Assembly (NCBI GenBank): GCA_030617125.1
Contig: JAUWWA010000019.1
Coordinates: 1 to 11,077 of the forward strand
Length of the DNA: 11,077 nt
Reading direction: 5' to 3'
Origin: Pirellulales bacterium
GTDB taxonomy: Bacteria > Planctomycetota > Planctomycetia > Pirellulales > Thermoguttaceae
Below the pieces are notes generated by a model, which was given only the letters and a program-made list of their open reading frames with translations, was not told the origin of the DNA and ran no database searches. Shown here in pieces: positions 1-11,077 of the stretch. Position 1 is the first letter of the stretch. Every line of letters begins with the position of its first letter. The translations under genes and the position numbers were made by a program.

Positions 1-1267
1 GATGGCGGTAGTTGAATACAAATTGTCCGTGGATGTCGCCGGCGAGAAACTCGCCCGGGTCTTTCATCAGCCCCGAGTCAGACAGTTCGGCGTGAAGCGG
101 CGTGCCCGGAATCGGCGTGTAGAGCATGAACTGGTGGAAGTCGGTGTCGTGGCGGACGGCGTAGTCGATAACCCGGTCGATGTTCTCCGGCGTATGGTTT
201 TCCAGGCCGATGATGGTCGAGCCCAACACGCGGATGCCGTGCGACTGCAACTCCTCGATCAATGCGAATGTGTCGATGCCGTCGAGTTTGGTATACTGGC
301 TGCTTTCGCCCTCGATACCCATCCAGATCCAGGAGATACCCAGGCGGACGAGTTGATCGATGCTGTACGACCGCAACCCGTTCGCGGACGTGAAGACATA
401 AAGTGCCCAGGCCTTGTCGTGCTGTTCGATCAGTTCCAAGAGCCGCATTGCGCGGCGGCGGTGGAGCAGGAAGTTTTCGTCCATGACGAAGAACGACTGG
501 ACGTTCATTTCGCGTTCGAGCCGGCACATGACGTCGAACAGTTCGTCGCCGGTCTTGTAGAAGTGGATGCACTTTCCCTTGCCGCCGAACATGGCCGAGG
601 TGGAGCAGAAGTTGCACCCCATGGGGCATCCGACCGAGGGGATAAGCGTGGCGGCGACGTCGCCCGGCTTGCTGTAGGCGGTAACGCCGAAGTTCCGCGT
701 TCCGATGCCCGAGGCGACCACCGGATGGCGCACGGGCTGCTGGCCGTCTTCGCCGAGGAAAGCGCGGAACCATTGCACGCCCTCGCCGCGCACGACGTGA
801 TCGACGTCGATCTGGAGGTGCAAATCGGGGATATTGGCCACGTGCCCGCCGACGACGATCGTCGCGTGCGGCTGATACTTGCGGATCAGCTTGCACATGT
901 GCTCGACCTTCATCACGTTGGGGATGATGCTGCTGATGCCGATGATGTCGTACCGGTTGGTGCGGAGTTCTTCGATGAACCGCTCGAGGACGGGAAAGTC
1001 CAACAGCGTGCACGGGGCCTCGATATTCGACTGGATCAGCATCAGCCCCCAGCTACGATGAAACATCCGCAACGAGAACGGGCCCTGCGTGCGCGTGACC
1101 TGGTTGTGGTAGAGTTCCATCGGGTTCAGCGCGCGGCTGCCGAACGCATCGTCTTGGGCGTACGGCCCGAACACGCCGGTTAACAATACTTTCGCGCGCG
1201 AACCGTCCGGGTGGACGGACCGAGGCGGTTGGTTCGGGGCATGGACTTCGGCTCGGTCTCGCTTCAT
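1..1267 (-). CDS. B12-binding-domain radical SAM protein (3' end outside window)
   Basis: I translated the minus strand from ATG at 1267 and it stays open for 422 residues to the left edge, so the C-terminus is missing. An in-frame stop lies at 1282-1280 and no other ATG follows it before 1267, which fixes the start. Residues about 80-165 look like a cobalamin-binding-type Rossmann domain, with a VVGGH turn at 138-142 and a VVRGEG segment at 158-163. I see no DxHxxG motif, so cobalamin may bind base-off without a lower His ligand or not at all. The radical SAM cluster motif CX3CX2C is at Cys214, Cys218 and Cys221, followed by an MDEN segment at 262-265 and MGIEG at 316-320, as expected in the TIM-barrel. 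Such enzymes do radical methylations or rearrangements on lipids, cofactors or natural products. The substrate here is unknown. It is transcribed away from the two-component genes. Family call firm, specific function open. Confidence 0.9.
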   Translation of the reverse strand, partial: MKRDRAEVHAPNQPPRSVHPDGSRAKVLLTGVFGPYAQDDAFGSRALNPMELYHNQVTRTQGPFSLRMFHRSWGLMLIQSNIEAPCTLLDFPVLERFIEELRTNRYDIIGISSIIPNVMKVEHMCKLIRKYQPHATIVVGGHVANIPDLHLQIDVDHVVRGEGVQWFRAFLGEDGQQPVRHPVVASGIGTRNFGVTAYSKPGDVAATLIPSVGCPMGCNFCSTSAMFGGKGKCIHFYKTGDELFDVMCRLEREMNVQSFFVMDENFLLHRRRAMRLLELIEQHDKAWALYVFTSANGLRSYSIDQLVRLGISWIWMGIEGESSQYTKLDGIDTFALIEELQSHGIRVLGSTIIGLENHTPENIDRVIDYAVRHDTDFHQFMLYTPIPGTPLHAELSDSGLMKDPGEFLAGDIHGQFVFNYRH

Positions 1268-2634: not shown

Positions 2635-2682
2635 TGCTTAGTTTGGTTGCGGCTGAACGCCGCGTTAGGGGTAACGAGGAAG

Positions 2683-3414
2683 ATGAAAGGCAAGGAACAC
2701 ATCTTGGTCGTCGAAGACGAACAACACCTGGCCACCGGCATCAAGTACAACCTCGACGCCGAAGGCTACCGCGTGACTACCGTCGGCGACGGCCCCTCCG
2801 CGCTGGAACTGATCGAGCAAGACCCCGACGGCGTCGACCTGGTGGTTCTCGATCTCATGCTGCCGGGCATGAGCGGCTACGCCGTGTGCGAGGCCCTGCG
2901 CGCCACCGGCAAGGAATTGCCCGTGCTCATCCTCAGCGCGCGAACGCTCACCGAGGACCGTACCCGCGGATTCGACGTCGGCGCGAATCAGTATCTCACC
3001 AAGCCGTTCGATCTGGACGAGTTCCTCAGCCGGGTAAAGAACCTGCTGGCGCTGCACCGCCGCCGCGTGGAGCGTACAACGGGTGCGGCATCCGAGCCCG
3101 TTTCGTTCGAGTTCGCCGACGCCAACATCAATTTCGAGACCTTCGAAGTCACCGTCGCCGGCGAGCCGGTCCGGATGACGCGGTTGGAAATGAGTCTGCT
3201 GCAATACTTTGTCAGGTACGAAGGGCGAGTGATCCCCCGCAGCGAGCTGATGGAAAACGTTTGGGGACTCCCGTGGAAGCCGTACACCAGGGCGCCCGAC
3301 CAGTTTATCCGCCGGTTGCGAAGAATCTTCGAGCCGAACCCCGCCGAACCGCGGCATTTCCTCACCATCCGCGACGCGGGATACCGTTTCATCGCCGAGC
3401 CGGAGGATGGTTGA
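2683..3414 (+). CDS. OmpR/PhoB-family response regulator
   Basis: A 243-residue DNA-binding response regulator and likely phosphate acceptor from the upstream kinase. The receiver domain spans about 5-122: acidic pair Glu11/Asp12, phosphoacceptor Asp57 in VLDLMLPG, Ser85 at the switch position and Lys107 in LTKPF. A linker leads to a winged-helix output domain (about 135-240) ending in the typical RDAGYRF wing. The residues before LTKPF are ANQY rather than the usual ADDY. I chose ATG 2683 because GAGGA (2676-2680) lies just upstream and the protein then begins MKGKEHILVVEDE. A TTG at 2647 in frame would add 12 residues, partly from the end of the repeat region. It probably regulates transcription, possibly of the neighbouring glycan cluster, but no binding site could be identified. 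Family call secure, regulon unknown. Confidence 0.93.
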   Translation: MKGKEHILVVEDEQHLATGIKYNLDAEGYRVTTVGDGPSALELIEQDPDGVDLVVLDLMLPGMSGYAVCEALRATGKELPVLILSARTLTEDRTRGFDVGANQYLTKPFDLDEFLSRVKNLLALHRRRVERTTGAASEPVSFEFADANINFETFEVTVAGEPVRMTRLEMSLLQYFVRYEGRVIPRSELMENVWGLPWKPYTRAPDQFIRRLRRIFEPNPAEPRHFLTIRDAGYRFIAEPEDG

Positions 3415-3427
3415 CGCCATTCAGCAA

Positions 3428-3502
3428 GGGTTCAGGGTTCAGGGTTCAGGGTTCAGGATTTGTGTGTTACGGCTCTCCATCAAGTCCTGAACCGTTAACC
3501 CT
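3428..3502. repeat. GGGTTCA heptamer array with degenerate inverted partner
   Basis: Four perfect GGGTTCA units occupy 3428-3455, beginning 13 bases after the regulator stop. An imperfect inverted partner lies at 3485-3502. Its flank CCATCAAGTCCTGAAC (3478-3493) is the reverse complement of the flank of the left arm at 2583-2598, so the two loci share more than the heptamers and belong to one repeat family. Confidence 0.8.
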
Positions 3503-3575: not shown

Positions 3576-3624
3576 AAGTCCTGAACCGTGAATCCTGAAC
3601 CCTAAACTCTGAACCCTGAACCCT
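3576..3624. repeat. TGAACCC heptamer array (reverse orientation)
   Basis: Six consecutive heptamers from 3582 to 3623 read TGAACCG, TGAATCC, TGAACCC, TAAACTC, TGAACCC, TGAACCC. This is the reverse complement of the array at 3428, so 3428-3624 is bounded by inverted heptamer arrays. The whole 364-bp stretch 3415-3778 holds only these arrays, the hairpin at 3528, and the promoter and leader hairpin listed separately. Confidence 0.8.
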
Positions 3625-3778: not shown

Positions 3779-4528
3779 ATGTTGAAGACACTGGGAATCG
3801 TTCAGGCCTGTTTTGCCTCACAGCGTTTTCGTTGCGTCGCCGGGCGGAAACTGGGCGGCCAATCGCTGCTGGGATGGGTCGTTCGCCGAGTGACCGACTC
3901 CATGCGGCTCGACGGCGTCATCGTTGTCGCTTGCGGTCGACAGGAGCATCGCTTTGTTGCCGAGCTAGTGCCCGCGGACGTCCCCGTGTTTATCGCCAAC
4001 CAAGACGACGCCTTGCACCGTTTCGCCCAGGTGCTGGAAGAGTACCCGGCGGAAGCGGTGGTCCGCGTGCGGGGCGACAACCCGTTTATCGATCCCGCGC
4101 TGATCGACCGGCTGGTCACGACGGCCGAAGCGCACCCGAATTGCGACTACGTCAGCTACAGCTCGCGGGACGGACGGCCGGCGATCCTCTCGCCGGTGGG
4201 CATTTACGCGGAGTGGTTCTGCACCGGCGCATTGCGCACCGCGGTCCGCTCTGCAAGGCATTGGGCCGATCGCGAACATGTTACCCGATACATCTACTCC
4301 CACCCGGAGAAGTTCAATATCCGGCTCATTCCCGCCCCGCCGGAAATCGACCGCGAGGACATACGCCTGACGGTCGACCACGAGGAGGACTGGGACCACG
4401 CGCTGACGATCTACGATGCGTTGGGGCCGGAAGCGTTGGATTGGCAAAGGATTGCCGACCTGTTGGACCATCAACCGGCCTTGCGCAAGCGGATGGCGGC
4501 GCTGAACCGCGCCGTCGCCCAAGGCTGA
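3779..4528 (+). CDS. SpsF-like cytidylyltransferase (degenerate signature loop)
   Basis: A 249-residue GT-A-like nucleotidyltransferase of the SpsF/CMP-sugar synthetase kind, which transfers CMP from CTP to a sugar or sugar/alcohol phosphate for surface glycans. The first strand and loop read LGIVQACFASQRF (5-17). The usual family form is QARMGSTRLPGK, so the loop Arg, Gly and Lys appear changed, with only Ser14 and Arg16 kept. The metal/nucleotide motif VRGDNPFIDP (97-106) is intact, and IRLTVDHEEDW near the C-terminal third matches the family's conserved LRLTVD segment. It is the first gene of the plus-strand cluster, 39 bases before the HAD gene. The start was chosen by the ribosome-binding site. 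It may use an unusual substrate or have weakened activity. Confident of family, not of substrate. Confidence 0.8.
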   Translation: MLKTLGIVQACFASQRFRCVAGRKLGGQSLLGWVVRRVTDSMRLDGVIVVACGRQEHRFVAELVPADVPVFIANQDDALHRFAQVLEEYPAEAVVRVRGDNPFIDPALIDRLVTTAEAHPNCDYVSYSSRDGRPAILSPVGIYAEWFCTGALRTAVRSARHWADREHVTRYIYSHPEKFNIRLIPAPPEIDREDIRLTVDHEEDWDHALTIYDALGPEALDWQRIADLLDHQPALRKRMAALNRAVAQG

Positions 4529-4567
4529 TTACCGGTCGAACGACAATCGAAAGGAATCGAATCCGCG

Positions 4568-5389
4568 ATGAGCAGGAAGCTCACCCTCCACCAGCCGCCG
4601 GATACCGTTTCGGTCCCGCTCCACGCCGCCGGCCGACCGCCGCCTTTGACGTCCCTGCCCGGTGTCCGCGGTGTGCTGTTCGACATGTGCAACGTGCTGT
4701 ATGACAACACCGTCTGGCGGCGATGGGTGTTGAAGGTGCTCGGCCGGCTCGGACTGCACACCAACTACCACAGCTTCTTCCGTGTTTGGGATCGCGACTA
4801 CTTGGCCGAGGTGCATCGCGGCCGCAGCACGTTTTGCGAGGCGTTTCGGGCGTTCCTGCTGTCGGCCGGACTCTCAGCCGGACAAATCGACGAGGTCGAA
4901 GTCGCCTGCACGGCACGCCGCCGGGAACTGCAACGCACCGCGCGGCCCCTGCCGGGCGTGATACCCACGCTGGCGCGGCTCCACCAGTCGGGACTGGTCC
5001 TCGCGGTAGTGGCCGACTCGGAACACCCCGCCGCCGTGTTGCGCGAACAGCTTCAGCGGTTCGCCATTGCAGGGATGCTCAGCGGGATCGTCTCGTCGAT
5101 CAACCTGGGGCGAACCATGCCCGACGCACCTTGTTACCTCGCCGCGTTGGAGGCTATGGATCTGCCGGCCGAGAAAGTGGCCTTCATGGGGCACGACACG
5201 GCCGAGCTGGCCGGGGCGGCGGCGCTCGGCATGCGCACGATCGCCGTCAATCACGACGCCGACGCCCGGGCCGACATTTACCTCGCGCGGTTCGAACAAC
5301 TGCTCGATGTGGTCGATTCGCGGAAAAGAGGGGACATGCGACTTTCTGAGCGATTTCAAGGTGCATATTTCCCGGGAAAAACGGGCTGA
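4568..5389 (+). CDS. HAD-superfamily phosphatase-like protein with atypical active site
   Basis: A 273-residue subfamily-I HAD protein with a helical cap (about 50-125). Typical members hydrolyse small phosphate esters. Motif I reads VLFDMCNVLYD: nucleophile Asp39 is present, but the second Asp, the usual general acid/base, is Cys41. Motif II is VVADS (147-151). The motif III region reads GRTMPD (181-186), with Met184 where GxxKPD proteins have Lys. Motif IV is MGHDTAELAGA, with Asp210. Activity may therefore be altered or lost. A 30-residue N-terminal extension precedes motif I. The last 21 or so residues (from about 253) are encoded by a palindromic repeat starting near 5324 and are not part of the HAD fold. 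AAAGGA ends 12 bases before the ATG. The position beside a cytidylyltransferase suggests a role in making or trimming the activated phosphorylated precursor. Confidence 0.8.
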   Translation: MSRKLTLHQPPDTVSVPLHAAGRPPPLTSLPGVRGVLFDMCNVLYDNTVWRRWVLKVLGRLGLHTNYHSFFRVWDRDYLAEVHRGRSTFCEAFRAFLLSAGLSAGQIDEVEVACTARRRELQRTARPLPGVIPTLARLHQSGLVLAVVADSEHPAAVLREQLQRFAIAGMLSGIVSSINLGRTMPDAPCYLAALEAMDLPAEKVAFMGHDTAELAGAAALGMRTIAVNHDADARADIYLARFEQLLDVVDSRKRGDMRLSERFQGAYFPGKTG

Positions 5390-5486
5390 ATTGGCCCAAA
5401 AAGGGGACAGGCCAGGTTTTCTGCGTTGTCAAGCTCCATAAACCTCGGGCAAAAACGGGCGAAAAGGTGGCATGTTCCCTTTTTCG
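5324..5486. repeat. REP/BIME-like palindromic repeat, two tandem diverged units
   Basis: Unit A begins with GGGGACATGCGACTTTCT (5330-5347). Unit B begins with GGGGACAGGCCAGGTTTT (5403-5420). Both later contain CGGG(C)AAAAACGGGC (5373 and 5446). The far end, 5462-5479, reads in reverse as GGGAACATGCCACCTTTT and matches 14 of 18 bases of the first arm, so the whole block is bounded by an inverted repeat. A-runs flank the GGGGACA starts. The style matches GGGGACA...TGTCCCC palindromes known to accompany REP-associated tyrosine transposases. No transposase lies in this window. It overlaps the 3' end of the HAD gene and fills the gap up to the ribosome-binding site of the next gene. Confidence 0.75.
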
Positions 5487-5493
5487 CCTCTTG

Positions 5494-5499
5494 AAGGAG
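5494..5499 (+). promoter_or_regulatory. Strong Shine-Dalgarno deciding a GTG start
   Basis: AAGGAG sits 7 bases before GTG 5507, the best ribosome-binding site in the window. It starts only 8 bases after the palindromic repeat ends, so the repeat insertion spared it. It supports the unusual GTG start of the next gene. Confidence 0.7.
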
Positions 5500-5506
5500 T
5501 ATCGAA

Positions 5507-7357
5507 GTGATCGTTCGCATTTTCGCCCGGCGTGAACTCGTCGATGGAAGCCTCGCACCGGAAGACCCGGCGTTGCTGCTGGAAGGATCGTGGCCGGCCG
5601 AGAGCCGCGAGGGGAGGCTGGGGCAAAGCACAGCGATGCCCCAGCAACGCCCGGCCCGGGGCTTCGGCGCGCTCAGCCGCCAGCCACCCAGTACTCCTTG
5701 CCGTCGGGCGCTCGACGACCTGATCGACGGGCGCTTCGACTGGATTGATCGCCAGGCGGCCGAGTTCGCCGAGCAACTCGGGCCGGGCGATTCGGCCGGT
5801 GGAGACCTTTCAGCGGCGTACGTCAATGCACTGGCCCTACGCTACTACCTGGTGAAGTTGATCCGGCCGCTGGCCTACTTCACCGAGGTCCGGCCGTTGC
5901 GACGCAGCGATCACGTGGAATTGGTCGTCGCCGGGCGCGACAAGGACTACGCCGACGTGCTGGCGCGGCTGTCTTTGGCCGCGGGAGCGTACTTCCACGT
6001 GCGTTGGGTCAAGGATCGGCCAAACGCCGACCGCGATTTTCCATCGAACCCGGCATGGCGGCGCTATTGGGGTCGGTTCAGCCGGATGCTGAAACCTTCG
6101 TCCGTCCGCGCGGGTTCGCCGCGCGTGGTGTTGTGCGGCAATCCCCGGCTGCTCGATCCCGTCTGCCGAGAGTTGCTCGCGCGTGGCTGCAACGTCTGGC
6201 GGCTGTACGATCGGTTCGCCGTCAGGTCGTGGTTGCGGTGGCGAGGCGCCGGCGCGGGGCAACTGGTGTGCGATTCGAGCCTGGGCCGCGAGAACCGGCT
6301 GACGCTCGACATGCCCGGGCGGTTGGACTGCCGCGGCGTGAACCTGGCCCTGCCCGTCGAGCGATGGCTCGAACATCGCGTGGCGACGCACGGGCCGCGA
6401 CAAAGCCGTCTGATCGCACAACTCGACGCGCACTTCCGCGACGTGCGCCCCGATGCGGTGGTGCTCGACGAAGACGCCACGCCGCTGGCCCGGGCGGCGG
6501 TGGCCGTCGCCCGGCGATATACCGCGCGCTCGCTGGTCGTGCAACACGGCGTGCCGTGCTGCCGGTTCGGTTTTGCGCCGGCGGCGGCGGACCGTGTCCT
6601 CGTCTGGGGCCGGTCGTCCCAGCGACAGTTGATACGTTGGGGTGTGCCGGCGAAGCGAATTCGTATTACCGGGGCGGTGCAGGAAGAAGGGGTCAGGGTT
6701 CAGGGTTCAGGGGTCAGAGGTAAAGAGTCGGGGAACAGGGAGCAGGAAGAAGGGGGCAGGAAGAAGACGCCGCGGATTCTGCTTTTGACGACGGTTCCGC
6801 CGCGTGACGAACGCCCCGACGCGGTTTCGCTGCACCTGACCGGCCGTACCTACGCCGAGATGCTCCGCATGACGTTTGCGGCCATCGCCCAGATCGGCGG
6901 CGCCGAGTTAATCATCAAGCTGCATCCGCGTACGGGTGACGACCCGGTGGTGCGGGCGCTGAAGTCGGAGTTCGCCGCGCTCGATGCCCGCGTGGTTAGC
7001 GGCGGGCCGTTCCAGCAGTGGCTTCCCGACGCCGATTGCGTGCTCAGTTGCGGTTCGAGCGCCGGGGTCGAGGCCACGCGGTTTGGCGTGCCGGTGATCC
7101 AACTGACGCCGTCCGGCGCAAAGGATTTTCTTCCGCACGACGAGTGGGGGCTTTGGGCCACGGCGCGAAGCAAGGCCGAACTTGGGCGATTGCTCGGCCG
7201 GCTGCTCAGTGAAGGTTGGCAACCGCCGATTGGCGGTAACCCTGAAACATTCGCCGACTTCGGTGTGCCGCCGGCCGCACGCATTGTTGACGAGATCCTC
7301 AACCCCACGGCGCCGGAAATCCAGAGCACGTTTAGCCGCCGCGTCCACGCGGCGTAA
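5507..7357 (+). CDS. GT-B-fold surface glycan transferase (capsule/CDP-glycerol-transferase-like)
   Basis: A 616-residue protein with an N-terminal region that I do not recognise (1-330) and a C-terminal half with GT-B-type motifs: VVQHGVP (344-350), an LHP motif with His473-Pro474, and SCGSSAGVEATRFGVPVI (514-531) with Glu522. These order and spacing patterns are shared by capsule synthesis, polysialyl- and CDP-glycerol glycerophosphotransferase-like enzymes. It may transfer a CMP- or nucleotide-linked unit onto the glycan. GTG start is fixed by AAGGAG at 5494. Two repeats are read in frame: a hairpin at residues about 36-46 within an odd Gln/Pro/Arg-rich stretch (27-68), and heptamer-derived residues 393-417 (VRVQGSGVRG and so on) in the linker between the two Rossmann halves. 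The C-terminal SRRVHAA is also encoded by a hairpin. No transmembrane helix is evident. Donor and acceptor are unknown. Confidence 0.72.
   Translation: MIVRIFARRELVDGSLAPEDPALLLEGSWPAESREGRLGQSTAMPQQRPARGFGALSRQPPSTPCRRALDDLIDGRFDWIDRQAAEFAEQLGPGDSAGGDLSAAYVNALALRYYLVKLIRPLAYFTEVRPLRRSDHVELVVAGRDKDYADVLARLSLAAGAYFHVRWVKDRPNADRDFPSNPAWRRYWGRFSRMLKPSSVRAGSPRVVLCGNPRLLDPVCRELLARGCNVWRLYDRFAVRSWLRWRGAGAGQLVCDSSLGRENRLTLDMPGRLDCRGVNLALPVERWLEHRVATHGPRQSRLIAQLDAHFRDVRPDAVVLDEDATPLARAAVAVARRYTARSLVVQHGVPCCRFGFAPAAADRVLVWGRSSQRQLIRWGVPAKRIRITGAVQEEGVRVQGSGVRGKESGNREQEEGGRKKTPRILLLTTVPPRDERPDAVSLHLTGRTYAEMLRMTFAAIAQIGGAELIIKLHPRTGDDPVVRALKSEFAALDARVVSGGPFQQWLPDADCVLSCGSSAGVEATRFGVPVIQLTPSGAKDFLPHDEWGLWATARSKAELGRLLGRLLSEGWQPPIGGNPETFADFGVPPAARIVDEILNPTAPEIQSTFSRRVHAA
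5618..5644. repeat. Hairpin repeat inside the GT-B gene, N-terminal part
   Basis: CTGGGGCA (5618-5625), 11-base loop, TGCCCCAG (5637-5644): perfect 8-bp stem. It is read in frame as part of a low-complexity segment that looks unlike the surrounding protein, suggesting an inserted mobile palindrome. Confidence 0.65.
6689..6767. repeat. Heptamer repeat inserted in frame within the GT-B gene
   Basis: GGTCAGGGTTCAGGGTTCAG begins at 6691 and decays into GGGAACAGGGAGCAGG-like units up to about 6767. It is the same GGGTTCA family as the intergenic arrays, here without an inverted partner. It encodes about 25 Gly/Arg/Glu/Gln-rich residues (393-417) and keeps the reading frame. Confidence 0.8.
7337..7354. 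repeat. Hairpin overlapping the GT-B gene stop
   Basis: CGCCGCG (7337-7343), loop TCCA, CGCGGCG (7348-7354): perfect 7-bp stem ending 1 base before the stop TAA at 7355. It supplies the last residues RRVHAA. The flanking TTTAG and TAATAC recall the flanks of the hairpin at 3528, so the two may be one repeat family. No T-run follows. Confidence 0.55.
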
Positions 7358-7427
7358 TACACAGCCGCACGAATGGAGTTCTTGTCGACTTCCCAGTACC
7401 CGCCTAATTTCCATTGCAGCAATCACC

Positions 7428-8954
7428 GTGTCCACGCAGCTCGAAGCACTACACCCGACGCAGATTTCCGCTCCGCTAAGCGGCTGGCGACGGCTGCTGG
7501 GCGATTGGATGGTCGTCGGCTCGGCGACGGCCGTCTGCCACGCGCTGGGCGCGGTCACGGGGGTGCTGTTGCGCATGCTGCTGAGCCCAACCCAAATGGG
7601 CATCTTCAGCGCGCTGAAACTCTTTCTCAGCTACGGCAACTACGCCAACCTGGGCATCAGCAAGGGCGCCGCCCGGGAGTTCAACGTCGCCACCGGCCGG
7701 GGCGACGCCACCGCCGCGCGGCGCGGGCTGAACCTGGCCTTCACCGTCAACACGCTCAGTAGCCTGCTGTACGCCGCGGTGCTGGTCGGCGTGGGCGCGC
7801 GGATCGCGACAAGCGACGGCGCCTGGGCGAACGCCTGGGGCCTGGGGCTCGCCGTGGTCGGTTTGCTCGCCGTGCTGACGCGCTACGTCACGTTTCACGT
7901 CACGATCTTGCGGGCAAACCAGGCATTTGTAATCACCTCGCGGCTGTCGATCCTCGAAGGCGTGCTGACGCTTGCCGTCTGTCCCGCGGCCGCATGGTGC
8001 TGGGGACTGCCGGGCCTGTTGGGCGGCATCGTACTCGTGGTGCTCGGCTCGCTGGTGTTCGTGCGCCGTCACGCCGCCGCCGTGCTTCGCTGGTCGTGGA
8101 ACACGGCCGAAATCCGCCGGCTCGTCGGCATCGGGAGCCCGATCCTGCTGGCCGGCGCCGTCTCGTCGCTGCTGCGTTCGCTCGATAAGCTGATGATCCT
8201 CGGCTACTTCAGCGATCGCGAGTTTCAACTCGGCTGCTACTCGGCGGCGCTGTTGGTCACCGGTCACCTCTTCGGTTTGGGGAACATGCTCGCCATGGTC
8301 ACCGGGCCGAGGCTTGGGGAAAAATACGGCCATTCGGCCGACCGCCGCGCGGTGGCGCGTTTGGCCGCCCGGGCGAGCGAATTGCAGGCCGCCGCCATCG
8401 CCCTGCCCGCCGCGCTGGCGTTGCTGGTCGCGCCGCCGCTGTTGGCGCATCTATTGCCCGAATATCGATCCGGCCTGGCGCCGCTGGTGTGGCTCGTGCC
8501 GGGCGTGGTGGCGATGACGCTCGCACTGCCGGGGAGCCAGATGCTCGTGGCCGTCGGACGGCAGCGCCGGGCGCTGCTGGCCGTGCTGCTGGCCACGGCG
8601 GCCGCCGCGGTGGGAAATCACCTGGCGCTGCGCGGCGGGTTCGGACTGATGGGCGTCGCCGCGGCCACGGCCACCGCCTACGCGGTCTATTTCGTGCTCA
8701 TCGCCGCGCTCTCGCTGTGGATCGAACTCGACGCGCCCGGGCGGTTGCGGTACGTCGGCATGCTTGCGCTCGCCGTAGGGCCGACGGTGGGTTCGGCGGT
8801 GTTGTTGCAGCGATGGTATCCCGACACGATCGCCGCGACGGTCGCCGCCGTGGTCGTCATTTGGAGCATAAGCGTCGCCGTCGGCTGGCGCCACGGCGGC
8901 TGGGGAGAAGAACTGAAAAGAACCAATGAACCGCTTTTCCCTCGACGAACTTGA
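7428..8954 (+). CDS. Polysaccharide flippase, Wzx/MATE-like
   Basis: A very hydrophobic protein of about 508 residues with roughly 12-14 membrane helices, the size and composition of the MOP-superfamily exporters that flip lipid-linked glycans across the inner membrane. The start region LLGDWMVVGSATAVCHALGAVTGVLLRMLLSPTQ is the typical first helix plus amphipathic loop. The middle segment SPILLAGAVSSLLRSLDKLMILGYFS matches the conserved family region around the helix preceding the central loop. I chose GTG 7428 because it starts just before this fold. The open frame extends upstream to 7182 but would overlap the GT-B gene by 176 bases. No clear ribosome-binding site precedes it. The gene ends in a 29-base overlap with the next gene, which suggests translational coupling. 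The transported lipid-linked glycan is unknown. Confidence 0.85.
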   Translation: MSTQLEALHPTQISAPLSGWRRLLGDWMVVGSATAVCHALGAVTGVLLRMLLSPTQMGIFSALKLFLSYGNYANLGISKGAAREFNVATGRGDATAARRGLNLAFTVNTLSSLLYAAVLVGVGARIATSDGAWANAWGLGLAVVGLLAVLTRYVTFHVTILRANQAFVITSRLSILEGVLTLAVCPAAAWCWGLPGLLGGIVLVVLGSLVFVRRHAAAVLRWSWNTAEIRRLVGIGSPILLAGAVSSLLRSLDKLMILGYFSDREFQLGCYSAALLVTGHLFGLGNMLAMVTGPRLGEKYGHSADRRAVARLAARASELQAAAIALPAALALLVAPPLLAHLLPEYRSGLAPLVWLVPGVVAMTLALPGSQMLVAVGRQRRALLAVLLATAAAAVGNHLALRGGFGLMGVAAATATAYAVYFVLIAALSLWIELDAPGRLRYVGMLALAVGPTVGSAVLLQRWYPDTIAATVAAVVVIWSISVAVGWRHGGWGEELKRTNEPLFPRRT

Positions 8955-9801
8955 ACGCCGTTGCCAGAAGCCCGACCATCGGCGCGTCGGCAATTGGATG
9001 GCCCGGCACGTTAGCCGGCCGGCGGCGCTGCGTATTACGCGAGTGGTGGCGCCTTCGGGCATTTCGGCCAATGCGGTTACACTCGCCGCGTGGGGATGTG
9101 GCGTCGCCGCCGCCTGCGCGCTGGCGTGGGGGACGATTGGGGGCTGGGTCGCGGCCGCCGTGTTGCTGCAGACGTGGTACCTGCTCGACCACGTCGACGG
9201 CCAGCTCGCTCGGCTGCGCGGCGCCGCCTCGCTCGACGGCGTGCAGTTGGACTACCTGATGCACCACACGATCAACCTGCTCGTGACGCTGGGAATGGGC
9301 GCCGGGCTGTTCGTGCGGACGACCGAACCGCTTTGGGCCGTCGCCGGGTTAGTCTGCGGCGTGTCGCTGCTGCTAATCACCTTGCAGCACGACGCCCGCT
9401 ACAAGGCGTTCATCCAGCGGCTCAAACGGCTCGACGGCCGGCTCGAAGTGGTCGGCGGCGGTGGTGGGCGGCCCGAGCCGCAACCACCCATCCCTCGCCG
9501 GCCCGTGCGGCTGGCGGCGTGGATCGCGCGGAAGGCCTGCGAAATGCACGTCGTGACCAACGTGACGTCGGTCCTGGCGTTGGTGCAATTGGCCGTTGGC
9601 GATACGCGGTTGCTCATCGCCGCGGCGTACCTTGCCGCAATAGCGCCGGTCGCCGCCGCGGTCGCCGGATGGACCCTCTTCCACTCCCAGCACGTCGGCG
9701 CGGCCGAGCGCGAGTTCGCCGCGTGGTACCAAACAGGGGACATTCTACTTTCTCACACACACGGTTTCGGCGAGACCGACGACACGAACGCAAAGAAATA
9801 G
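8926..9801 (+). CDS. CDP-alcohol phosphotransferase with Asp-to-His at the fourth motif position
   Basis: A 291-residue membrane protein of the CDP-alcohol phosphatidyltransferase family, which moves a phosphoalcohol or phosphatidyl group from a CDP-linked donor to an alcohol. The signature motif has the form D88-HV-D91-G92-QL-A95-R96, eight residues, G105, VQL, D109, YLM, H113. The fourth Asp, thought to be the catalytic base in this family, is His here. The family's surrounding layout (N-terminal amphipathic helix with KPDHRRVGNWMARHVSRP, then paired helices) is kept. A Gly/Pro-rich linker (about 176-195) splits the membrane region. The last 21 residues (from about 271) are encoded by a palindromic repeat. 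It starts inside the flippase gene. With the cytidylyltransferase upstream, it could place a CMP-activated alcohol phosphate on the glycan or lipid. Confidence 0.85.
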   Translation: MNRFSLDELERRCQKPDHRRVGNWMARHVSRPAALRITRVVAPSGISANAVTLAAWGCGVAAACALAWGTIGGWVAAAVLLQTWYLLDHVDGQLARLRGAASLDGVQLDYLMHHTINLLVTLGMGAGLFVRTTEPLWAVAGLVCGVSLLLITLQHDARYKAFIQRLKRLDGRLEVVGGGGGRPEPQPPIPRRPVRLAAWIARKACEMHVVTNVTSVLALVQLAVGDTRLLIAAAYLAAIAPVAAAVAGWTLFHSQHVGAAEREFAAWYQTGDILLSHTHGFGETDDTNAKK

Positions 9802-9810
9802 CATGTCCCC
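9736..9810. repeat. REP-like palindrome joining two genes
   Basis: GGGGACATTCTACTTTCT (9736-9753) matches 14 of 18 bases of the reverse complement of 9793-9810 (GGGGACATGCTATTTCTT). An AACA and a TTTTT flank the ends. It is the same GGGGACA/TGTCCCC family as 5324-5486. It contains the last 20 or so codons and the stop of the CDP-alcohol transferase gene and an ATG (9803) in frame with the next gene. Confidence 0.75.
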
Positions 9811-9832
9811 TTTTTCCGCGACTACACCAAGA

Positions 9833-10924
9833 ATGCTCGTTCATGTGCTCATCTTGAACTACAATGGGCGCCGGCTCTTGGCCGAGTGTTTGCCTTCGGT
9901 GCTGCGCGCGGCCGAGACCTCGCGCCACCGGTGCGACGTGGCGGTCGTCGACAACGACTCGACCGACGATTCCGTGCCGTGGCTGGCCGAGCACTTTCCA
10001 AGGGTCCGCGTCATCGGCCTGCCGAACCGGGGACTGTGCTCGTTCAACGACGTGGTGCCCACGTTGGAAGGCCCGGTGGCCGTGCTGCTGAACAACGACA
10101 TCCAGCTCGACGCCGGCTGCATCGATCCATTGATCGATCCGTTGGTGGCCGACTCGCAGTGTTTCATGACGGCCCCGCTGTGCCGGCGAATGGACGACGA
10201 CACATACGAAGGCTTCAAGACGGCGGTCTGCTGGCGGTGGGGGCTCGTGCAGGCGACGGCGCTCTTTCCGGGCCACGAGGCGGCGATCGATCGGCCGGGG
10301 CTGACGGCCTCGGCCGGGGCGGCTATGGCGGTCGACTGCCGCAAGTTCGTCGAGTTGAGCGGGTTCGATCCGCTCTACCTGCCCGGCCGGCTCGAAGACC
10401 TCGACTTCGCGTTTCGGGGCTCCATGGCGGGCTACCACGCCCGATACATCCCCGAGGCGGTTGCCCGGCATCGCGGCATGGCCACGTTCGCCGAGGTGTT
10501 CGGCCGCGACGGTTGCGACGCGTTGGCGCTGCGCAACACGCTGCTTTTCCAGTGGAAAAACCTCCGGCATTCGCGCCACCTCCTGCGGCAGTGCATGGCG
10601 TTGCCGCTACGGCTGGCGTGGGACGTTTGCCGCAGCGCGTCGGCGCCGCGCCGGCGACGTTGGGTATTCCTTCGCGCGCTACTGGCGGCGCTTACCAGAG
10701 CGCACATGCTGCGATCGCCGCACTATCGCGCCGGCGGCACTACCGCGCAAGAGTACGAGTTCTTCGATCGCTTCCGGCCGGAGCGATTGGGGGAGCAAAG
10801 ACAAGGCGCCCCAGTGGGAGGCGTCTCCGACGGCGACTGGAACACGAACGGGCGATGGTCGCCGAAGGAGCCGCCTCCCACAGTGGTGAGTTACCGTATA
10901 CCGATTCAGTGGGGGGAATCTTGA
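9833..10924 (+). CDS. Family 2 glycosyltransferase
   Basis: A 363-residue GT-A glycosyltransferase with no obvious membrane helix. It opens with VHVLILNYNGRRLLAECLPS and VDNDST (39-44), has the DxD-like NND (87-89) for metal/nucleotide binding, and the GRLEDLDFAFR acceptor-side motif (Glu188/Asp189, catalytic base region), like rhamnosyltransferase-type enzymes. It adds a sugar from a nucleotide sugar to the growing glycan. I prefer ATG 9833 because the longer form from 9803 starts inside a palindromic repeat and adds 10 residues, MSPFSATTPR, that are repeat-like. Either is possible, as no Shine-Dalgarno is clear. The final 40 or so residues, from about 322, come from another inverted repeat (10814-10881) and look unlike the fold. 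The stop overlaps the next start as TTGA. Sugar donor unknown. Confidence 0.85.
   Translation: MLVHVLILNYNGRRLLAECLPSVLRAAETSRHRCDVAVVDNDSTDDSVPWLAEHFPRVRVIGLPNRGLCSFNDVVPTLEGPVAVLLNNDIQLDAGCIDPLIDPLVADSQCFMTAPLCRRMDDDTYEGFKTAVCWRWGLVQATALFPGHEAAIDRPGLTASAGAAMAVDCRKFVELSGFDPLYLPGRLEDLDFAFRGSMAGYHARYIPEAVARHRGMATFAEVFGRDGCDALALRNTLLFQWKNLRHSRHLLRQCMALPLRLAWDVCRSASAPRRRRWVFLRALLAALTRAHMLRSPHYRAGGTTAQEYEFFDRFRPERLGEQRQGAPVGGVSDGDWNTNGRWSPKEPPPTVVSYRIPIQWGES
10814..10881. repeat. REP-like inverted repeat at the GT2 gene end
   Basis: GTGGGAGGCGTCTCCGACGG starts at 10814 and the 24-base arm runs to 10837. Its partner 10858-10881 reads in reverse as GTGGGAGGCGGCTCCTTCGG and onward, matching 21 of 24 bases. 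The 20-base spacer forms the loop. GTGGGAG(G)CGGCTCC-type palindromes are a known bacterial REP style. It is a third repeat family in this window and encodes part of the C-terminal tail of the glycosyltransferase. Confidence 0.75.
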
Positions 10925-11077
10925 GCACGGACGTATCCAGGTTGATTCGCGAGGACGTGAGGAACGCTCAGCAATGCGACGGCCGCCTTGAGGGCGCGCT
11001 GGAGGCACGGCGCGCCCGTCGCTACCCGATCTCGCGCTGGTACGTCCGTCCGGCGGCGAACTGGCTCGCCGCGGTGC
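10921..11077 (+). CDS. Start of a gene, possibly a second CDP-alcohol phosphotransferase (partial)
   Basis: From TTG 10921, overlapping the preceding stop as TTGA, the frame is open for 52 codons to the right edge. A G-run (10911-10916) a few bases upstream could serve as a weak ribosome-binding site. Residues 1-34 are charged and soluble-looking (EDVRNAQQCDGRLEGALEARRA). Then RYPISRWYVRPAANWLAAV resembles the amphipathic helix with an RP pair that precedes the first membrane helix in CDP-alcohol phosphotransferases, as in the gene at 8926. The catalytic motif lies outside the window, so this is a weak call from the N-terminus and context only. Later in-frame starts are possible. Confidence 0.5.
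   Translation, partial: MSTDVSRLIREDVRNAQQCDGRLEGALEARRARRYPISRWYVRPAANWLAAV

Follow-up and report, generated by a model that had tools for sequence, protein, structure and literature searches.

What does a bacterium of the order Pirellulales build with a run of genes that sets a cytidylyltransferase homologue and a HAD-family protein beside glycosyltransferases, a flippase and two CDP-alcohol phosphotransferases (CDP-APs)? The genes lie on contig JAUWWA010000019.1, a stretch of 11,077 bases analysed here at its full length (the window), which is a complete contig from a metagenome-assembled genome of 2.42 Mb and 68% completeness. The initial annotation of this DNA had read them as an uncharacterised CDP-linked phosphoglycan pathway, and the genes it named, in the order it gave, were all recovered as open frames on the plus strand, about where it had placed them; every cluster feature located below is on that strand. 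A sugar coat of the cell is the probable product of the cluster. Our fuller answer, for which we hold the chances to be even, is that it makes a putative nonulosonate-derived, phosphate-linked surface glycan using a new CDP-AP variant.

A conserved cluster in Pirellulales

A scan of genome contigs based on the first of the two CDP-APs (CDP-AP1) returned 13 loci, mostly with Planctomycetota or Pirellulales labels, together with one from Omnitrophota and one from Candidatus Nealsonbacteria. The cluster is present in 23 of the 196 sampled genomes of the window's order, G000 included (CDP-AP1 match at E ≤ 1e-10), and the comparison covered 28 distinct loci (numbered L; genomes are numbered G). According to profiles built from the loci, the gene order is SpsF-like cytidylyltransferase homologue, (NeuB), HAD, GT-B, flippase, CDP-AP1, GT2, CDP-AP2, GT2b, polysaccharide deacetylase, GT4, GT9 and PMT, and the window is the front part of this larger conserved Pirellulales cluster, probably for a surface glycan. 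The flippase, of the MOP/Wzx type (7374-8954; PF13440, E = 1.8e-11; start codon uncertain and the first ~60 codons doubtful), lies directly 5' of CDP-AP1 (8926-9801) in 19 of the 25 loci that extend 1 kb or more on the upstream side, and the GT2 glycosyltransferase (9803-10924; PF00535, E = 8.8e-11) directly 3' of it in 15 of the 24 that extend 0.9 kb or more downstream. A locus in which flippase and CDP-AP1 are fused (L048) was scored against both counts, which become 20 and 16 when it is included. The co-conservation of the cluster genes is far beyond chance, and the set that the initial annotation had grouped is thus conserved together in relatives. The contig labelled Candidatus Nealsonbacteria (L004), whose CDP-AP1 is 71% identical to that of the window and is accompanied by GT2 and CDP-AP2, is probably a mis-binned planctomycete contig.

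The second CDP-AP is cut by the contig end. A frame opens with the TTG at 10921, sharing TTGA with the GT2 stop, and 52 amino acids of it (10921-11077) fit before the contig ends. This N-terminal fragment has no Pfam match of its own; it aligns with proteins that relatives encode in the corresponding position (40% over 50 amino acids in L004, 64% over 25 in L010), and the four such proteins tested all score above the PF01066 cut-off. Because the fragment matches PF01066 proteins at the same place, the cluster is taken to hold two CDP-APs, as had been suspected. All 14 relative rows of CDP-AP2 keep the fourth Asp of the family signature (D4), the 52 amino acids in the window being too short to show the signature, and CDP-AP2 is, judged from these relatives, a predicted canonical second transferase.

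Front genes with a probable nonulosonic-acid ancestry

The first gene of the cluster (3782-4528; PF02348, E = 8.6e-19) encodes a cytidylyltransferase homologue of the SpsF/KdsB-like type whose nucleotide-binding loop is degenerate. Its best PDB match is 6oew, 'Cytidylyltransferase' (8.7e-11), its relatives carry SpsF names, and sequence comparison assigns it to the SpsF/KdsB-like CMP-sugar group. At other loci, eight of nine SpsF-like proteins have the loop QARxxSxRLPGK, and the remaining one (L069) is not alignable in this region; in the window the loop reads QACFASQRFRCV (residues 9-20, QAxxxSxRxxxx; 3806-3841), with Cys for the usual Arg11 and Val for the usual Lys20. Among the best 120 of 1002 relatives, the set used for all residue frequencies of this protein, Cys11 occurs in 115, Lys20 in three, and Arg11 and Lys20 together in none. 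Across the 18 distinct cluster proteins, of which 17 are alignable at the loop, both Arg and Lys are found in three (L041, L045 and L047) and the full R-S-R-K set only in L041. Arg12 and Lys21 of Escherichia coli NeuA have been reported as nucleotide-binding (PMC2901514), and by their order and nine-residue spacing they would be the counterparts of residues 11 and 20 of the window's protein. R23, E145, D191, R192, D194, R196, E203 and W205 are invariant among the same 120 relatives, and the protein therefore appears to be under strong constraint. D100 (119 of 120) and D200 (101 of 120), both kept in the window, are presumably, as judged by alignment, the metal-binding Asp residues of CMP-sugar synthetases.

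In relatives, this gene adjoins NeuB, a nonulosonic-acid (NulO) synthase (PF03102 with SAF). NeuB is on the CDP-AP1 contig in seven of the 23 cluster genomes (G001, G004, G005, G010, G023, G042 and G077), and an eighth genome, G073, has a separate contig on which the SpsF-like gene, NeuB, HAD and GT-B follow one another. NeuB is absent from the window; a true NeuB (E < 1e-40) is found somewhere in the genome for 20 of the 23, the exceptions being G000, G173 and G070. The NeuB of the Pirellulales cluster is closer to the NnaB than to the PseI model and falls below both cut-offs, and the sugar is therefore not named. A replacement for Kdo in the lipopolysaccharide core was considered and is unlikely, the KdtA domain (PF04413) being present in 20 of the 23 cluster genomes. 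The initial annotation had supposed the cytidylyltransferase to produce a CDP-alcohol or CDP-sugar; its CMP-sugar kinship, its adjacency to NeuB in relatives and its loss of Arg and Lys all speak against this.

A similar set of neighbours occurs in a second phylum. Of 285 genomes sampled from the phylum to which the Omnitrophota locus (L016) belongs, 45 match the CDP-AP1 profile, and the pieces first fetched for 20 Omnitrophota CDP-AP1 loci contain a flippase homologue in six, GT-B in six and NeuB in three, with GT-B in one more and NeuB in one more once flanks were added. In L146 and L151, PseI (450 and 453 bits) and PseG (236 and 173 bits) all exceed the curated cut-offs, and an SpsF-like protein with an intact loop (Arg, Ser, Arg or equivalent, Lys) is present in all three Omnitrophota flanks. 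We strongly infer that the front genes of the cluster descend from a former CMP-NulO module. Between PseI and GT-B, L151 also carries a glutamate-1-semialdehyde aminomutase-like protein (12009-13367) that scores below its cut-off.

The HAD-family protein (4568-5389; PF00702, E = 9.8e-14) keeps its nucleophile Asp in motif I, a residue that is Asp in 13 of 17 distinct loci, and has Met in place of the motif III Lys, which is present in 12 of the 17; nine retain both. Since the second Asp of motif I is found in only four of the 17, motif I is no clean test, and the motif III Lys was relied on. One protein, P0308, is a single HAD-GT-B polypeptide (residues 1-220 and 227-852), and the two are therefore linked. 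GT-B itself (616 amino acids; 5507-7357) had been described as being of the CDP-glycerol-transferase kind; we found no PF04464 match at E ≤ 0.1, and its C-terminal part (residues 203-605) has a UDP-GlcNAc 2-epimerase/MurG fold. Its identification as a CDP-glycerol glycerophosphotransferase (TagB/TagF) was rejected on the PF04464 result, the fold comparison alone being non-excluding: no TagF-like or sialyltransferase fold is among the best 50 fold matches, though such folds may rank lower. GT-B has no PDB sequence relative at E ≤ 1. Its invariant D323 and HPR (473-475) recall the D/E-D/E-G and HP motifs described for sialyltransferases (PMC7439481), but the third residue is not G and the likeness is only a lead.

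A CDP-alcohol phosphotransferase with histidine at D4

CDP-AP1 matches PF01066 at E = 2.6e-6 (28.3 bits, cut-off 22) and was modelled with a mean pLDDT of 90.3. The nearest structures by Foldseek are AF2299 (1.7e-6), IPCT-DIPPS (1.9e-4) and RsPIPS (2.5e-4), on which the model superposes loosely (TM 0.40-0.55, rmsd 6.8 or more). It satisfies the signature D1xxD2GxxAR(x8)GxxxD3 of the family, in the form D88xxD91G92xxA95R96(x8)G105xxxD109xxxH113 (9187-9264), in which D1-D3 are kept and D4 is His. In the best 120 of 570 relatives, D88, D91, G92, A95, R96, G105 and D109 each have a frequency of 1.00, H113 is His in all 120, as it is in 33 of 33 locus rows (duplicates included), and the residue after it, H114, is likewise His in all 120. 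In phosphatidylinositol-phosphate (PIP) synthases, D4 is described as binding the second metal and as presumably acting as the base (PMC6506517), and its change to Asn in MtPIPS is reported to nearly abolish activity (PMC4634129).

We placed this change on a tree of 100 rows comprising cluster CDP-AP1 and CDP-AP2, distant Planctomycetota matches and Omnitrophota matches. D4 is His in 68 rows, Asp in 23 and another residue, mostly Asn, in nine, among which the fused protein of L048 is misaligned and has His in the separate alignment of locus rows. All 68 His rows, together with eight others, form one group apart from every Asp row, and the D4 label changes three times on the tree as against 27.3 times in shuffles. 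His-type CDP-APs from two phyla, Planctomycetota and Omnitrophota, thus group together with moderate support. In L048 (9358-11964), a Wzx-type flippase and a His-type CDP-AP1 share one open frame of 869 amino acids. CDP-AP-like proteins from other families of Planctomycetota (L081-L095, L102, L103 and L105) combine His at D4 with loss of the second Gly of their motif; L087, L088 and L091 have Glu in place of D3.

The initial annotation called for comparison with, among others, inositol-phosphate cytidylyltransferase and di-myo-inositol-phosphate-phosphate synthase (DIPPS). The likeness extends to the fold of CDP-AP1. The basic residue that follows D4 in PIP synthases (PMC6506517), however, is His in CDP-AP1 (H114), and inositol-phosphate synthase (PF01658) is present in only 13 of the 23 cluster genomes, the window's own genome being one of the 13. 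On these two grounds an IPCT/DIPPS osmolyte or inositol-lipid pathway was rejected as a general explanation.

Proposed pathway and alternatives

Gene content, order and conservation, the altered motifs and the fused frames are observed directly; the pathway built on them is a proposal. We propose that in the ancestral module NeuB would have made NulO or NulO 9-phosphate, HAD would have removed a phosphate and the SpsF-like enzyme would have made CMP-NulO, with GT-B transferring NulO or a related sugar. In the lineage of the window, NeuB would have dropped out of the cluster. The SpsF-like and HAD proteins are kept there despite their loss of catalytic residues, and they would for that reason probably serve an assembly of GT-B, flippase and CDP-AP as partner or binding proteins and not as enzymes; that both are non-catalytic today is one of our weaker suggestions. 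CDP-AP1, with D1-D3, G and AR of its metal- and CDP-binding signature intact, would probably still bind a CDP-activated donor and, next to the flippase, pass that donor's phospho-alcohol (or phosphatidyl) group to a lipid-linked glycan, its His substituting for Asp as base or metal ligand. We offer with similar reserve the idea that it is such an active His-type transferase. CDP-AP2 would act as the canonical second transferase, enzymes of the GT2, GT4, GT9 and PMT types would extend the glycan, and the flippase would export it. A phosphate-linked glycan is still plausible because two CDP-AP genes are kept, and to this extent the "CDP-linked" label of the initial annotation stands, although the cytidylyltransferase step it implied is not supported. 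Read more broadly and more tentatively, as a possibility that we rate somewhat below even, the His-type CDP-APs of Planctomycetota and Omnitrophota would be a new enzyme class within the CDP-AP fold that works without the fourth Asp, is coupled to a Wzx-type flippase (once by fusion) and builds a putative phosphate linkage in a surface glycan, with the decayed SpsF-like and HAD proteins as retained pseudo-enzyme partners.

A number of observations weigh against this proposal. CDP-AP1 could be inactive, because the D4-to-Asn change nearly abolishes activity in MtPIPS as reported, and the branch uniting the His group has support of 84/91, under the 95/80 mark, with a bootstrap not fully settled. 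The whole nucleotide-binding loop is present in only one of five NeuB-linked SpsF-like proteins (L041), and HAD residue losses are also seen in some NeuB-bearing loci (L014, L041 and L065); decay therefore does not simply track NeuB loss. NeuB may have been missed in the window's genome because that genome is only 68% complete, and NeuB is only putatively ancestral to the cluster. Gene content also varies: GT2 is not 3' of CDP-AP1 in eight loci with room for it (L006, L012, L014, L043, L049, L051, L057 and L059), L004 is without a flippase and L050, L052, L053 and L054 show none at the threshold used, and both HAD and GT-B are missing from L007 and L008.

The strongest rival, which we nevertheless consider rather unlikely, holds that CDP-AP1 has no catalytic role and, with a lipid or CDP-alcohol bound, acts as the flippase's scaffold or gate. 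It draws on the presumed role of D4 as base and the behaviour of the MtPIPS variant, on the fusion in L048, on the residue losses of the neighbouring SpsF-like and HAD proteins and on Asn at D4 in six of 30 sister Omnitrophota rows. A protein kept only as a scaffold fits poorly with the seven invariant signature residues of CDP-AP1, which are unlike the patchy decay of the SpsF-like and HAD proteins, and with a D4 position that is a single fixed residue, His, and not variable. It is less probable still, and in our view improbable, that the first gene activates a sugar or alcohol phosphate with CTP to a CDP-linked donor from which CDP-AP1 and GT-B build a teichoic-acid-like phosphoglycan. The adjacency and conservation of cytidylyltransferase, two CDP-APs, GT-B and flippase would suit this pathway, as would L007 and L008, which retain the cytidylyltransferase with flippase and CDP-AP1 despite the loss of HAD and GT-B, and the nearest CDP-AP structures, AF2299 and IPCT-DIPPS, are reported to have an N-terminal cytidylyltransferase-like domain, AF2299 binding CDP-glycerol (PMC4634129). 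The cytidylyltransferase, however, is of the CMP-sugar (SpsF) kind, lacks the paired nucleotide-binding Arg and Lys in all of its best 120 of 1002 relatives and adjoins NeuB in relatives, and GT-B is without a PF04464 match.

Loss of the base could instead have changed the acceptor, so that polyprenyl phosphate or another anionic acceptor receives the phospho-alcohol from CDP-AP1, which would thereby start the flipped glycan in the manner of a phosphoglycosyl transferase. A phosphate acceptor would presumably need no base, CDP-AP1 lies directly beside the flippase and is once fused to it, and a scan of 57 cluster loci with simple motifs, run without a positive control, turned up no initiating transferase that convinces among the Planctomycetota loci, where the one match (L014) looks like chance. 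The limits of that scan themselves count against the idea; in addition, three Omnitrophota CDP-AP1 loci (L138, L141 and L148) have a protein with a WbaP-like motif, and all 23 cluster genomes encode PF02397 proteins at other places, with a distance of about 20 kb in G077. We regard an acceptor switch as quite improbable, and a role for CDP-AP1 as sole initiating transferase is weakened by the WbaP-like motif proteins and by the PF02397 proteins in all 23 genomes. We retain, at the even chances given above, a nonulosonate-derived, phosphate-linked glycan made with a CDP-AP variant as our preferred reading of the cluster.

Relation to known systems

The individual parts of the cluster come from known families; their combination and the D4 change are what is new. 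In searches of the open-licence PubMed Central (PMC) literature, no characterised cluster matched it, as the initial annotation had anticipated, and none of the papers listed named either the cluster or a His-type CDP-AP. Closest in composition is the Bacillus subtilis sps cluster, a surface-glycan system in which, as in the relatives of the window, an SpsF-like cytidylyltransferase and a NeuB-type synthase stand beside GT-B and GT2 enzymes. The sps genes are reported to make CMP-legionaminic acid with SpsE and SpsF, and TagB-like proteins to occur in nonulosonic-acid clusters, SpsB having a TagB-like domain (PMC7439481). The sps pathway as described there differs in having no CDP-AP or HAD and in requiring SpsF, whereas the window's homologue has lost the Arg and Lys of its loop and the window is without NeuB.

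The ancestral front genes correspond to the synthase, phosphatase and CMP-sugar synthetase set of the KDN pathway of Bacteroides thetaiotaomicron, leaving the HAD subclass aside. The KDN phosphatase of that species is HAD-type. Its CMP-KDN route is described as a KDN-9-phosphate synthase, a phosphatase and a CMP-KDN synthetase (PMC6200933); flippase, GT-B and CDP-AP are not part of the pathway so described. CDP-AP1 shares its fold and D1-D3 signature with the class I CDP-APs AF2299, AfDIPPS and the PIP synthases, the first two of which are likewise paired with a cytidylyltransferase-like domain, and differs from all of them in having His at D4 and at the following residue. The best NCBIfam matches of GT-B are the Leptospira-type surface carbohydrate proteins TIGR04326 and TIGR04396, the former of similar length (602 against 616), but its scores of 23.9 and 27.1 are far under their cut-offs of 250 and 125.

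According to an earlier genome study, no O-antigen pathway had been described for the planctomycete R. baltica (PMC3422733); as a source of what decorates the outer surface of planctomycetes, the cluster is a definite candidate for some of the Pirellulales. A fixed His where a catalytic Asp was considered essential would force a rethink of the CDP-AP family mechanism, and the cluster also shows how, in nature, biosynthetic enzymes can be conserved in position even as their catalytic residues are lost.

Other features of the window

Upstream of the cluster, the window encodes a B12-binding radical SAM protein (2-1267, minus strand) and, just 5' of it, a histidine kinase (1555-2487) and a response regulator (2647-3414), both on the plus strand. 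No Rfam matches or tRNAs were found in the window, and a promoter and terminator scan was uninformative, giving one promoter and 10 terminator sites where shuffled sequence gave 0.7 and 6.8. A short repeat of approximate form GGGGACA...CTTTCT, together with its inverse, lies near gene ends at 5325-5347, 5398-5420, 5459-5485, 9731-9753 and 9790-9816; the strict pattern occurs in the window's own genome only at 5325 and 9731 and is in this exact form not a common repeat there. The 7-base repeat AGGGTTC forms clusters at 2573-2634, 3427-3502, 3583-3624 and 6688-6715, its doubled unit having 16 matches (at most two mismatches) against 0.04 in shuffles. The last of these clusters is in frame within the GT-B gene, where it encodes a low-confidence linker between the two halves of the protein.

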